Shown: positions 1,054-6,054 of the stretch, piece by piece
How positions within the stretch are numbered: position 1 is the stretch's first letter
Layout: each line of letters starts with the position of its first letter
Assembly: GCA_001803565.1 (NCBI GenBank)
Contig: MHDQ01000143.1
Location: forward strand, 1-6,054
Source of the DNA: Nitrospinae bacterium RIFCSPLOWO2_12_FULL_45_22
GTDB lineage: Bacteria; 2-12-FULL-45-22
Direction of reading: 5' to 3'
Length of the DNA: 6,054 nt
Notes under the pieces: generated by a model
The model's input: the letters and a program-made list of their open reading frames with translations, nothing else
What the model was told of the DNA's origin: nothing
Databases searched by the model: none
Made by a program: the position numbers and the translations under genes

Positions 1054-1350
1054 TTATCTGGTTAATCGCATCTTATAGCTCCGGTGCAACTTTTCCATAT
1101 TATCTAATATCTCATTGCCTGTACTCATTAAATCTTTCAGTTGAACGATATATTTTAAATACCTACGTATTTCTTCTGGTGACATCAATTCCTTAGAATT
1201 CGCATAAAATTCCTCGGAACCCTTAAGGATACCTGCAGCCCTTTCTGTAAAGCTCTTTATCCGATTTAAAACCTTGATATCTACTTGGGCCTGATTAATC
1301 CATTGGCTCAGGAGGTCATTTTCCTTCATCTCAGGAATTTTTTGGCTCAT
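1054..1350 (-). CDS. Hypothetical small helical protein, 98 aa, first gene of the minus-strand operon
   Basis: I do not recognise this protein. The ORF is open from a GTG at 1359, but I prefer the ATG at 1350 because a GAGGTGG Shine-Dalgarno-like stretch precedes it at suitable spacing; the choice changes only three residues. The product is about 98 residues, rich in Lys, Glu, Leu and Met, with no signal peptide, no membrane segment and no cysteine. It reads as a mostly helical protein, possibly two long helices (roughly residues 12-45 and 55-95 with an SPEE helix cap between them), so a small adaptor or coiled-coil protein is possible. Its TAA lies 7 nt before the flavoprotein ATG, so the two are very probably co-transcribed and perhaps co-translated. 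That tight coupling and the strong ribosome site are the main reasons to believe the gene is real. No function can be assigned. Confidence 0.65.
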   Translation of the reverse strand: MSQKIPEMKENDLLSQWINQAQVDIKVLNRIKSFTERAAGILKGSEEFYANSKELMSPEEIRRYLKYIVQLKDLMSTGNEILDNMEKLHRSYKMRLTR

Positions 1351-1439
1351 CTCTCCCACCTCACTTAATATTTATAAATGTTTATACCCAACTGATTCCT
1401 AAAAACCTCATCATGAAACAGTGTTGTTGCAATAAAGAA

Positions 1440-1641: not shown

Positions 1642-1892
1642 GCATCCTTCATTTTCCCGTTAACACTTTTAGCTTACAAAAGTCTAAGCAAGGGGGTAAA
1701 TATTCAGTGAACCAGTTATAATGAAACCACGGATTTCCCAGATAACACAGATATTTTAGTGAGAAGTAAGCCGTGAGCAGTAACTGCTAACTCCTTACTG
1801 CTCACTTTAGAAAATCTGTGGTTTCTATTTACGGTGTTTCCTGAATATCTACTTCGAACTGCTAACTACTTTTGGTCAGATATGAAGGATGC
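1642..1892. repeat. Nested inverted-repeat element, MITE-like, 251 bp
   Basis: The ends are a perfect 11-bp inverted repeat, GCATCCTTCAT (1642-1652) and ATGAAGGATGC (1882-1892). Nested inside in the same symmetric order are ATATTCAG/CTGAATAT (1700-1707 and 1841-1848), GAAACCACGGATTT against AAAATCTGTGGTTTC (1723-1736 and 1811-1825, with mismatches), and at the core a perfect 11-bp pair GTGAGCAGTAA/TTACTGCTCAC (1773-1783 and 1795-1805, 11-nt loop). Four concentric pairs suggest one folded unit. There is no coding frame inside and no obvious target-site duplication at the edges. This could be a non-autonomous transposable element, a REP-like dispersed repeat, or a structured RNA. The symmetry is seen directly; the element type is inferred. 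Confidence 0.5.
1773..1805. repeat. Core perfect hairpin of the nested repeat
   Basis: GTGAGCAGTAA and TTACTGCTCAC form a perfect 11-bp stem around an 11-nt loop (ctgctaactcc). The loop sequence aactgctaact recurs at 1857-1867. No T-tract follows, so an ordinary intrinsic terminator is unlikely. Confidence 0.55.
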
Positions 1893-2160
1893 CTGGATTT
1901 CTGACAGAAAATAGCCATACCCAAAAGAAAGGGGGGAGCTGATATGTGATCGATCTATAAGTCATTATTTAATAGATCTTAGTGGGTAATTTTCACAGAA
2001 GAAGTTCGCTACATTTCTTGCTGGGTCGAGTTCTCTAACGGTAATAGAAAAGATAAATTCTGGTATCCTGCTCTGCTAGGTTTTCTCTCGCAATATAAAT
2101 ATCTCCGAAGACCGGTTTCTAGTTCCCTTTCTAAGGCCTTTTCTCTATTCTTTGTCTTCT

Positions 2161-2169
2161 TGTTATAAT
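2161..2169 (+). promoter_or_regulatory. Candidate extended -10 promoter for the CoA-transferase genes
   Basis: TGTTATAAT is a complete extended -10 element (TG-n-TATAAT). The position 17 bp upstream holds only TTCTCT (2141-2146), a poor -35, which extended -10 promoters can tolerate. The transcript would carry a leader of about 108 nt before the ATG at 2284. No competing better promoter is visible nearer the gene. Confidence 0.35.
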
Positions 2170-2283
2170 TGCACCAAGGAACAGGCAAAAGCAGCATAAT
2201 AAGATGACGTCCTTTTTGGGAAATGGGTTATCATCTGAAGATATTTACAACAGGTTAATGAAGATGTAGGAGGAACAAGGCAT

Positions 2284-3528
2284 ATGAAAAAGGAAGAATT
2301 TTACCAGGAGTTCTTAGCGGACTCCCTAGGCCCTTTGGAGGGGATAAAAGTCCTAGAGGCCACTACCTCCCATGCTGGCCCTGTAGCAGGGAAGATATTA
2401 GCTGATCTCGGGGCAGAAGTTATCAAGATCGAGATGCCCCAGAAAGGTGATATTTTGCGTCATTTGGGTCCCTTTCTCCCCTCTTGTCCGGATAAATTAG
2501 AAGCTAGTTCCTATTATCAAAGTCTTAATAGGAACAAAAAGGGGATCACCTTGCGGCTCAGTTCTCCTCAAGGGAAAGACGTGTTTTTAGACCTAGCCCG
2601 GGGAATGGATATTATTATTGAGAACTATAAACCAGGTACCATGAAGCGTTGGGGAGTGGGCTATTCCCAGGTAAAAAAGATCAAGGCCGACATCATATAT
2701 GTCTCTATCGCCGGCCGGGGTCAATGGGGACCTCAACATCCAAAACCCAGCTATGATGCTGTGGGTCAGGCCATGGGGGGATTAATGCATGTTACGGGCA
2801 ATGCGGATGATCCTCCAACCCGGGCTGGTTATGGGTTGGGTGATGATCTTGCAGGCTGGCAAGCCGCCTTTGGCGGGTTGTCAGCCTTGCTCTACCGTCA
2901 ACAGACCGGAAAGGGGCAACATGTCGATGTATCCCAACAGGATGCTATGCTCTATGCCAGTGAGATAGGGATCATGGCGGCCAGCAATGCAGGATATTTT
3001 TGGAAAAGGATGGGGAGCGGGAATCCCGTGGTATCCCCTTATGATACCTATAAATGCCAGGATGATTATGTATTTATCGCGGTAGTTTTGGACTCCCATT
3101 GGGAGAGGTTTTGTAAGATAATTGCCCGGGAGGATCTTATAGCTGACCCCAGGACTTCCAACCCTGCCTCCAGGGCCAAAAACAAGGATTTTGTTGATAA
3201 AATAGTATGGGAGTGGACCCAATATAAAACGGTGGCAGAAGTGGTTGAGATATTAGAGCAAGCTCAATTAGTAGTCGCTCCTATCCTCAACCTTAACCAG
3301 GTAGCCGGGGATAAGCATCTCATGGAGCGGGATATGGTTACCAAAGTAGAACATCCTTTATCCGGTCGTTTAAGTATTTACGGTGTGGCACCCAAGTTCT
3401 CCCTTACGCCGGGTAAAGTGAGGTCTCCTGCCCCTATGCTGGGCCAACATAACCAGGAGATATATCAAGGGCTGCTCAATTACTCAGAGGAAAAGATAGC
3501 CAGCTTAAAGGAAGAAAACGGCATCTAG
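2284..3528 (+). CDS. Class III CoA-transferase, CaiB/BaiF family, tandem copy 1
   Basis: This 414-residue cytosolic enzyme is of usual family length and would move CoA between acyl thioesters and free carboxylates through an aspartyl-CoA intermediate. The start is well supported: AGGAGG at 2268-2273, 10 nt before the ATG. Family features in order: GPLEGIKVLE (residues 16-25), AGPVAGKILADLGAEVIKIE (31-50, the CoA/nucleotide-binding entry), SLNRNKKGITL (80-90), ENYKPGTMKRWG (113-124), SYDAVGQAMGGLMHVTG (156-172), GYGLGDDLAGWQ (182-193), TGKGQHVDVSQQDA (208-221) and PAPMLGQHNQEIY near the C-terminus. By alignment with the GDSNTG motif of formyl-CoA transferase, D187 is the likely catalytic Asp. 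It is followed after 35 nt by a close paralogue, and by a 2-hydroxyacyl-CoA dehydratase gene further on, which suggests activation of a 2-hydroxy acid. Substrate not determinable; enzyme class firm. Confidence 0.93.
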   Translation: MKKEEFYQEFLADSLGPLEGIKVLEATTSHAGPVAGKILADLGAEVIKIEMPQKGDILRHLGPFLPSCPDKLEASSYYQSLNRNKKGITLRLSSPQGKDVFLDLARGMDIIIENYKPGTMKRWGVGYSQVKKIKADIIYVSIAGRGQWGPQHPKPSYDAVGQAMGGLMHVTGNADDPPTRAGYGLGDDLAGWQAAFGGLSALLYRQQTGKGQHVDVSQQDAMLYASEIGIMAASNAGYFWKRMGSGNPVVSPYDTYKCQDDYVFIAVVLDSHWERFCKIIAREDLIADPRTSNPASRAKNKDFVDKIVWEWTQYKTVAEVVEILEQAQLVVAPILNLNQVAGDKHLMERDMVTKVEHPLSGRLSIYGVAPKFSLTPGKVRSPAPMLGQHNQEIYQGLLNYSEEKIASLKEENGI

Positions 3529-3563
3529 TCATCTAAAGAGATATTGGATCGGGAGGGACTAGC

Positions 3564-4808
3564 ATGAGAAAAGAAGAATTTTACCAGGATGCATTACCAG
3601 ATTCTGTAGGACCCCTGACAGGGGTAAGGGTTCTTGAGGCTACCCATAACGCCGCCGGTCCTTTTGCTGGCACTCTACTGGCGGATTTGGGGGCGGAATC
3701 AATAAAGATAGACCAGCCCGTTGTAGGTGATGTAGCCCGGCGGGTACCCCCCTTTGTAGAGAGTAGTTCTCCCTTGGAAGCCAGTACCCTTTATTTATCC
3801 ATCAATAGAAATAAAAAGGGCATAACCCTAAATCTTAAGCCTGAGGGAGGGAAAAAGCTTTTCAAGGAATTAGTGAAGCAGGTAGATATAGTGATCGAAA
3901 ATTACAAACCCGGTACTATGGAGGCCTGGGGTTTGGGTTATCAGGCCCTTATAAAGGTTAAACCTGACATCATCTATACCTCTATCAGTGGATATGGTCA
4001 GTTTGGCCCCAATCATAAAAAACCTAGCTATGATGCCATAGCTCAGGCCATGGGGGGGTTGATGAGTGTAACTGGGTATCCAGATGGTCCACCTTTGCGG
4101 ACAGGATACGGTTTTGGTGATGACCTAGCGGGTTGGCAGGGGGCAATAGCAAGTATAGCTGCCCTCTACTATAAGAGGCTTACTGGGAAAGGGCAGCGTA
4201 TAGATATTTCCCAGCAGGATACTATAGTCTATTGTAGTGCCTGGGGTATTATGGGGGCAGTTAATGCCGGGCACATCTGGCCCCGAGAAGGGAATACGGT
4301 TAGGATATTAGCCCCCTATAATACCTATAAATGCAAAGATGATAACTATGTATTTATCGCCGTGGTATTAGAGTCGCATTGGCAAAAACTATGCAGGCTT
4401 ATGGGCCGCGAAGAATTGATCAACGATCCCAAAACTAACTCTCCTTCGGCTAGGGCCGAGCGGGGAGAATTTGTAGATAATATTGTCGAGGAATGGACTA
4501 TGAAGCATACCGTCCAGGAGGTAGTAGAAATTCTGGATAAGGAACAGATAGTAGTGGCACCCATCCTCGATTTTAAACAGATATTGGAAGACGAACATAT
4601 CAAGCAGAGAGAGATGGTGGTAGAAGTTGAACATCAAGCCGCTAATAAACTAAAACTTTATGGTGTTGCTACCAAGTATTCCCTAACACCGGCTAGAATC
4701 CGTATGCCCGCCCCTATGTTAGGCCAGCATAACCAAGAGATATATAAAGGGCTTCTGGGGCTTGGTGACCGAGAGCTACTTCAACTGGCAGAACAAGGGA
4801 TAATTTGA
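3564..4808 (+). CDS. Class III CoA-transferase, CaiB/BaiF family, tandem copy 2
   Basis: Also 414 codons, aligning with copy 1 over its full length with only two compensating one-residue gaps and about 58 % identity (240 positions by hand). The start has GGGAGG at 3551-3556, 7 nt before the ATG. All core motifs remain: GPLTGVRVLE, AGPFAGTLLADLGAESIKID (31-50), SINRNKKGITL (79-89), ENYKPGTMEAWG, SYDAIAQAMGGLM, GYGFGDDLAGWQ with likely catalytic D186, TGKGQRIDISQQDT (207-220) and PAPMLGQHNQEIY. Both copies therefore look active. Differences cluster in the loops at residues about 55-70 (PVVGDVARRVPPF against PQKGDILRHLGPF) and about 233-246, where family members often vary with substrate. The 35-nt gap implies one transcript. 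The pair could be two specialised homodimers or a hetero-oligomer, as in BbsEF benzylsuccinate CoA-transferase, which is built from two CaiB-type subunits. The choice between these is inference. Confidence 0.93.
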   Translation: MRKEEFYQDALPDSVGPLTGVRVLEATHNAAGPFAGTLLADLGAESIKIDQPVVGDVARRVPPFVESSSPLEASTLYLSINRNKKGITLNLKPEGGKKLFKELVKQVDIVIENYKPGTMEAWGLGYQALIKVKPDIIYTSISGYGQFGPNHKKPSYDAIAQAMGGLMSVTGYPDGPPLRTGYGFGDDLAGWQGAIASIAALYYKRLTGKGQRIDISQQDTIVYCSAWGIMGAVNAGHIWPREGNTVRILAPYNTYKCKDDNYVFIAVVLESHWQKLCRLMGREELINDPKTNSPSARAERGEFVDNIVEEWTMKHTVQEVVEILDKEQIVVAPILDFKQILEDEHIKQREMVVEVEHQAANKLKLYGVATKYSLTPARIRMPAPMLGQHNQEIYKGLLGLGDRELLQLAEQGII

Positions 4809-4832
4809 TAACTAAAGCTATCACTTTAGATC

Positions 4833-4855
4833 AGGAGGTGCATAAGATGCAATAG
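4833..4855 (+). promoter_or_regulatory. Orphan ribosome binding site and start codon of the decayed third copy
   Basis: AGGAGG (4833-4838) is followed after 8 nt by ATG (4847-4849), then CAA and an immediate TAG stop. The surroundings resemble the leader of copy 2: both have CTAAAG, then GATC, a GGAGG-type core and ATG, at 35 and 38 nt after the preceding stop. This suggests the initiation region survived while the coding sequence behind it was deleted. A ribosome would make only Met-Gln. Chance similarity is possible but unlikely given matching position and spacing. Confidence 0.5.
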
Positions 4856-5257
4856 TTGCCTGCAGCATATCTTTCAAGGCTTTAGTGTACGATGTGCAGT
4901 CAATCCTGTAGTAGGGCGGGAGAGGTTCAAGCCAGAATATTCTCCTCCCTTGCCTGCCTCGATATTGGCAGCCGTCACCCTGCCGGTGCTCCAGCTAATG
5001 CTTACCCCTGCCGAGATGGCTATGTAGTTCTGGCCGCATCCCTGGAGAGGCATTGGGCTAAACCCTGTCAGTTCATGGGTAGGGAGGAATTGATTGACGA
5101 TCTCAGGACCAAGACTGTGGCTCTCCGGGTAAAAAATGTCGCTTTTGTGGATGAGGCAGTAGGAGAGTGGGCCCGAGATAAGACCGTTGATATGGAACCT
5201 TGCTTCGGATATAGCAAGGAAAATATAAAAGAACTGTTGCAAGAAGGGGTTATCTAA
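4847..5257 (+). pseudogene. Remnant of a third CaiB/BaiF CoA-transferase gene, multiply deleted
   Basis: From about 4961 to 5186 the frame ending at 5257 encodes a clear CoA-transferase segment: DIGSRHPAGAPANAYPCRDG, then a stretch matching copy 2 (YVFIAVVLESHW; MGREELINDPKT) as YVVLAASLERHW and MGREELIDDLRT, then FVDEAVGEWARDKTV. At about 5186-5203 it jumps to the extreme C-terminus (FGYSKENIKELLQEGVI), skipping about 80 codons including PAPMLGQHNQEIY. Everything corresponding to roughly residues 2-215, including the catalytic Asp, is absent. An ATG with a ribosome site at 4847 lies in this same frame but is blocked by TAG at 4853 and 4883. A shifted frame starting at 4846 reads DAIVACS, resembling QQDTIVYCS of copy 2, so the remaining 5' part may begin there with a frameshift. 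GSRHP and YPCRDG look more like canonical family members than copies 1 and 2 do. The longest open part begins with ATG at 4892 and could be mis-called as a 121-aa gene. A functional product is very unlikely. Confidence 0.85.
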
Positions 5258-5309
5258 GTGCTCTAATTCATAATTACGGTGACGTATTTAAAAGAAATTG
5301 TTTATGATA

Positions 5310-5374
5310 AGGAAACCAGGAATAGAGGAGAGGTTAAAAATTGGAAGTGTAATTTCCTGGTTTCTTGGTTTCCT
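5310..5374. repeat. Inverted repeat with two alternative right arms
   Basis: GAAACCAGGAA (5312-5322) pairs perfectly with TTCCTGGTTTC (5354-5364). The overlapping left arm AGGAAACCA (5310-5318) also pairs perfectly with TGGTTTCCT (5366-5374). The right arms contain TGGTTTC twice in an 8-nt period. The two hairpins share a left arm and so are mutually exclusive. This may be attenuation-like folding or only a simple repeat; no riboswitch class is recognised. Confidence 0.45.
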
Positions 5375-5392
5375 AATAAAAAAGAAGGTAAC

Positions 5393-5408
5393 CCCCGCCT
5401 GAGCGGGG
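5393..5408. terminator. GC-rich hairpin, possible weak terminator
   Basis: CCCCGC and GCGGGG form a perfect 6-bp stem with a CTGA tetraloop. On the plus strand it is followed by TAAAAAATAA rather than a T-run, so it is not a textbook intrinsic terminator for the CoA-transferase transcript. On the minus strand a T-run (TTCTTTTTT) follows about 6 nt after the stem, but no gene arrives from that side in view. It could equally be an RNA stabiliser or part of a leader fold. Confidence 0.3.
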
Positions 5409-5453
5409 TAAAAAATAAGCATAATACTTAACTGTATTTATGAAATGACGTAC

Positions 5454-5470
5454 TTAAGGAAAAACCTTAA
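5454..5470. promoter_or_regulatory. Palindrome TTAAGG-AAAAA-CCTTAA, candidate operator of the dehydratase gene
   Basis: A perfect 6-bp inverted repeat separated by five A residues lies 23 bp before the dehydratase start codon and overlaps the second TGACGTAYTTAA copy. Its size and placement fit a dimeric repressor site, or a short hairpin in the leader. The regulator is unknown, and no transcription factor gene is in the window. Confidence 0.4.
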
Positions 5471-5493
5471 CAGTTTTATGGGAGTGGACGAGG

Positions 5494-6054
5494 ATGATAA
5501 AAGAGCTAAATACTTTAAAAGAGATAAGAAATATAAATGAATCATTCCCCTTTACTGATTCGATCCGGGAATGGAAGGAACAAGGAAAAAAGGTCTTAGG
5601 ATATTTATGTACTTACATACCTGAAGAGATTATTTATGCCGGAGGGTTCTTGCCCGTGAGGATAACGGGTGATTCCAGAGAATTGGAGTTAGAAGAGGCT
5701 AATGCCTATCTCTATATTTATACCTGCTCTTTTGCCCGGAGCTGCCTGCAACTTGCTTTAAAAAATCAATACGATTTCCTGGATGGGTTTGTGGGCTGTT
5801 CGACCTGCGATCCCATACGGCGCCTCGCTGATGTCTGGGAAAAATATTTAACTACCCCTTTTTTGCACGTCCTTACTATACCCCGAAAATCCTCCCCCGA
5901 TGCCCATAAGTTGTACCAAAACCAAGTAGAGATATTCAAAGAAAAAGTGGAGGATTTCTTTGGGGTAAAAATTACGGAGGATGACCTAAAAGGGGCCATA
6001 GAGGTATATAACAAGAATAGAGAACTCCTGACAAAGCTATATGAGCTGAGGAAA
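5494..6054 (+). CDS. 2-hydroxyacyl-CoA dehydratase subunit (HgdB/FldB/BcrC family), partial, C-terminus beyond right edge
   Basis: 187 codons are visible from the ATG, with GGGAG at 5480-5484, 9 nt upstream, as ribosome site. The family dehydrates (R)-2-hydroxyacyl-CoA to enoyl-CoA, or reduces aromatic CoA esters, using [4Fe-4S] clusters and ATP-driven electron injection by a separate activator; it is cytosolic and oxygen-sensitive. Family marks: GYLCTYIPEEIIYAGGFLPVRI (residues 36-57), YTCSFARSCLQL (76-87) and DFLDGFVGCSTCDPIRR (94-110). Cysteines at 39, 78, 84, 102 and 105 include the likely cluster ligands; C39, C78 and C105 sit where ligands are expected. Family members are usually about 370-430 residues, so roughly half is present. 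The partner subunit and activator should follow beyond the edge. The CoA-transferase genes upstream fit a FldA/HadA-like supply of the CoA ester. The 236-bp gap with inverted repeats suggests its own control. An aromatic-CoA reductase subunit is the alternative within the family. Confidence 0.9.
   Translation, partial: MIKELNTLKEIRNINESFPFTDSIREWKEQGKKVLGYLCTYIPEEIIYAGGFLPVRITGDSRELELEEANAYLYIYTCSFARSCLQLALKNQYDFLDGFVGCSTCDPIRRLADVWEKYLTTPFLHVLTIPRKSSPDAHKLYQNQVEIFKEKVEDFFGVKITEDDLKGAIEVYNKNRELLTKLYELRK

Follow-up and report, generated by a model that had tools for sequence, protein, structure and literature searches.

The window analysed here is an entire contig of 6054 bp (C143), taken from a 3.67-Mb assembly of 321 contigs with an estimated completeness of 85%. 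Its contents are a minus-strand OYE-family gene, a pair of intact CoA-transferase genes, a stretch of gene debris and the beginning of an HGD-D family gene. Class III CoA-transferase genes are abundant in this genome, with 27 matches to PF02515, and HGD-D/benzoyl-CoA-reductase-like genes are also plentiful. Upstream of the OYE-family gene and co-directional with it is a 101-aa ORF at 1054–1359 (minus strand), for which Pfam and NCBIfam gave no match. The long intergenic stretch from 1380 to 2283 consists mostly of short dispersed repeats and has 46 other matches in the genome. Comparison within the phylum was made with one other genome, G001, which belongs to the same order. The features from copy 1 to the repeat beyond the debris are collected in Table 1.

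Table 1. Features of the CoA-transferase array and the adjoining debris (coordinates are those of the window)
Feature	Position	Strand	Basis
Class III (CaiB/BaiF, PF02515) CoA-transferase copy 1, intact, 414 aa	2284–3528	+	ORF and profile match
Class III CoA-transferase copy 2, intact, 414 aa	3564–4808	+	ORF and profile match
Junction between copy 2 and oxidoreductase remnant, with in-frame TAG at 4827–4829	4809–4829	+	alignment to relatives
Flavin oxidoreductase remnant (FadH/BaiCD/OYE-like), C-terminal Fe-S tail, 41 codons	4830–4952	+	translation, protein and profile matches
Deletion junction with frame change; losses comprise the oxidoreductase end, the spacer and the ~241 opening CoA-transferase codons	4953–4963	+	alignment
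Third CoA-transferase, internal piece (copy 2 residues ~242–318)	4964–5191	+	profile and paralogue alignment
Internal deletion junction, ~80 codons lost	5192–5206	+	paralogue alignment
C-terminal 16 codons of the third CoA-transferase, GYSKENIKELLQEGVI, with the stop	5207–5257	+	alignment, shuffle test
Palindromic (MITE-like) dispersed repeat, ~200 bp	5254–5458	.	genome search
			

The two CoA-transferase copies before the debris are intact, as the initial annotation had stated, and are separated by 35 nt. They share only 58% identity, which indicates that the array is made of old paralogues. Two class III CoA-transferase domains also occur head to tail in single open frames of 793–841 codons, on contigs C85, C173, C224 and C234 of the same genome and on C14 and C35 of G001, in addition to the numerous genes with a single domain. 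A split CoA-transferase on C78 was rejected as a further pseudogene candidate, since what interrupts it is a string of Ns marking an assembly gap.

The oxidoreductase remnant lies one frame over from a 121-aa ORF (4892–5257), with nt 4830 as a codon start, and encodes IRRCIRCNSCLQHIFQGFSVRCAVNPVVGRERFKPEYSPPL. It carries the C-terminal cluster motif of the FadH/BaiCD/OYE-like Fe-S flavin oxidoreductases (CxxCNxC...CxVNPxxG) and ends about 3 codons short of the stop of intact relatives. This 41-aa tail exhibits 71, 68 and 66% identity with intact oxidoreductases of ~395 aa in the same genome (C86, C201 and C312, respectively) and 64% with the oxidoreductase of G001:C47; E values for these four range from 1e-16 to 6e-14. 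The tail is also matched by the NCBIfam FadH/OYE models (E 1e-4) and by the Oxidored_FMN structure 6l6j (E 5e-4), in the part that carries their Fe-S motif, and a DNA search of the genome independently matched nt 4878–4949 to the C201 and C86 genes at their 3′ ends. All of the motif cysteines and the CAVNP are retained, and the changes are mostly in third positions. The FMN-binding barrel (PF00724) is absent, about 351 N-terminal codons being gone, and no further trace of the gene was found within 4780–5500. Elsewhere in the genome, a 160-aa oxidoreductase ORF (L040, on C86, nt 931–1413) comprises the C-terminal part only and lies directly upstream of an intact copy; it may be a further relic of this family.

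Codons 25–100 of the 121-aa ORF match positions 220–295 of PF02515 with 57.8 bits (E 1.4e-15), and the fragment matches the family profile over these positions only. The 16-residue C-tail scores above all of 20,000 shuffles, and in a six-frame translation of the window no 16-mer surpasses it except the corresponding ends of copies 1 and 2; it is a genuine CoA-transferase C-terminus. The description of a decayed third CoA-transferase fused from fragments therefore holds, as does the reported absence of ~80 codons near the 3′ end, which correspond to copy 2 residues ~319–398. The 5′ loss is larger than the ~215 codons first counted. The ORF opens with ~24 residues that come from reading the oxidoreductase tail in the wrong frame, so the CoA-transferase homology begins only at about nt 4964, and ~241 codons are gone. 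With residues ~1–241 and ~319–398 missing, the fragment lacks the full-length fold and the catalytic-Asp region of a class III CoA-transferase; this region lies around residue 186 in copy 2, as placed by alignment to SUGCT. An aspartyl-CoA adduct is a known intermediate of the CoA-transferase family (PMC3720670). Since the catalytic region is gone and the fold is incomplete, the piece is a remnant and not an enzyme.

The stretch 4827–5257 is most probably (about 0.86) a compound pseudogene, in which two co-directional genes downstream of copies 1 and 2 have collapsed. The identity, frame and extent of each piece are established by the matches described above. The first gene would have been a short FadH/BaiCD-type Fe-S flavin oxidoreductase, with about its last 41 codons left, and the second a third class III CoA-transferase, with ~76 internal and 16 terminal codons left. 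In the simplest history, the ancestral order would be CoA-transferase, CoA-transferase, oxidoreductase, CoA-transferase, and the last two genes would have decayed in place and lost their function through at least three deletions. One would have removed the bulk of the oxidoreductase, another its end together with the initial ~241 codons of the CoA-transferase, and a third a stretch of ~80 codons towards the 3′ end of the latter. Relative to the intact homologues, the disabling lesions are deletions, the frame change and the TAG at 4827.

The G001:C47 locus harbors an intact oxidoreductase (1868–3004) followed after 21 nt by a CoA-transferase (3026–4267) on the same strand. The oxidoreductase is of the same subfamily as the remnant and the CoA-transferase of the same clade as the fragment; this gene order is the one that would be expected before the deletions. 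A tree gave no firm placement of the fragment, and the C47 CoA-transferase is a candidate ortholog only. The closest relative of the fragment is another G001 gene (C31, 58%), and no near-identical intact copy of the debris is present elsewhere in the assembly. Given the 58% identity of that relative and of copies 1 and 2 to each other, the fragment is an old separate paralogue and not a recent duplicate of copy 2, in agreement with the initial annotation. The simple contraction of a tandem array that was also proposed does not fit, since copy 2 and the third CoA-transferase would have been separated by an oxidoreductase gene, which collapsed along with the third CoA-transferase. Such CoA-transferase arrays would once have included a flavin oxidoreductase gene among their members, a hint of a common pathway.

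The left end of the dispersed repeat, CTAAG, overlaps the TAA stop codon of the remnant. The repeat has terminal inverted repeats of ~35 nt, and about 18 copies of it, whole or incomplete, occur in the genome. Where both ends of a copy can be seen, it starts and finishes with CTAAG or CTTAG, in most cases with the identical sequence twice, and this suggests that CTWAG is the duplicated target site. Such a repeat abutting the 3′ end of the debris might mean that the debris arrived already rearranged as a block, for instance with the repeat, and was not made in place. However, the pieces keep the order and orientation of the intact G001:C47 pair, between copy 2 and the repeat, and a second copy of the block was not found in the genome. 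We consider arrival as a block unlikely.

It had also been proposed that the third CoA-transferase still had its original ribosome site, ATG and spacing, and that its losses were confined to internal codons. An ATG at 4847–4849 does follow an AGGAGG by 8 nt, the apparent site spanning 4833–4849, and the gap of 38 nt from copy 2 is close to that between copies 1 and 2. These two spacers resemble each other weakly and not significantly (p ~0.06; rank 5 among 74 ribosome-site regions). The bases that look like a ribosome site and start, AGGAGGTGCATAAGATG, fall inside the CxxCNxC motif of the oxidoreductase. They read as EIRRCI.CN.CL, with TAG replacing the E, continuous with 35 more matching residues, and C86, the closest intact relative, has AGG CGA TGT at the corresponding position. 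The TAG at 4827–4829, one codon upstream of the remnant, stands where 4 of 4 intact relatives have Glu (GAA/GAG). Furthermore, the intact paralogues go on with KEEFY after the start, whereas the ATG at 4847 meets a TAG two codons later. A retained start is thus very unlikely, and the supposed ribosome site and ATG are coding sequence of the oxidoreductase and not a CoA-transferase start. The persuasive signal arose by chance from Arg-Arg-Cys codons (AGG AGG TGC) of the iron-sulphur motif, an annotation trap that is corrected here.

No working product would be expected from 4827–5257, because the catalytic-Asp region and the FMN barrel are gone, the ATG at 4847 soon hits a TAG, and the 121-aa ORF starts out of frame. 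Amino-acid-changing codons in the oxidoreductase tail number 12–16 of 41 against its relatives, versus 4–10 among the intact relatives. In the CoA-transferase piece, a Leu has replaced the DPR-motif Pro, a residue that every other member of the set retains, and the end branch is among the longer ones (0.83–0.87 versus medians of 0.49 and 0.41). The internal piece is open over 76 codons with a gene-like distribution of changes over codon positions (ratio 0.575 versus 0.622 in intact pairs), and this test alone demonstrates no relaxed constraint in it. Because the pattern is still gene-like, the loss would be young compared with the divergence among the paralogues; the decay may be recent, or a weak constraint may persist on this piece.

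The open frame and its gene-like pattern could also reflect a short functional 121-aa protein or a leader peptide made here. Yet the 24 N-terminal residues are out of frame, the ATG at 4892 has no SD, the catalytic region is missing, and no 121-aa homologue was found, the matches being internal stretches of long ORFs. The scan of genome contigs for the ORF returned one distant full-length gene only. A conserved 121-aa protein in relatives had been named initially as evidence against decay; no ortholog was detected by DNA in 60 relatives or by protein in 31 genomes (own genome counted in each). Such a product is highly improbable. Just as improbable is a chimera or artefact of the metagenome-assembled genome, despite the incomplete, 321-contig assembly and a window that is a whole contig: the three pieces are in a plausible order, and each diverges from every other locus of the assembly, so the stretch is no mosaic of known contigs. 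Least probable of all is that the fused segment is translated and its CoA-transferase piece kept for a new role, such as binding copies 1 and 2 in this dimer-forming family. The compound pseudogene is ordinary gene decay, more compound than first described.

In the bai operon, the oxidoreductases baiCD and baiH and the CoA-transferase baiF are located in one operon (PMC10382948). The same two protein families are encoded together in both systems, and bai is an anaerobic acyl-CoA pathway. The likeness is at the family level only, and no bai function is claimed for the window, whose other oxidoreductase scores far below the BaiCD equivalog cut-off. The G001:C47 locus, from the same order, likewise pairs the two families, there as an intact oxidoreductase ahead of a same-clade CoA-transferase, but its upstream CoA-transferase is of another subgroup. 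As in bacterial pseudogene remnants (PMC522871), the copies here are truncated and internally deleted, with intact homologues elsewhere; unlike those remnants, two unrelated neighbours have merged here into one apparent ORF.
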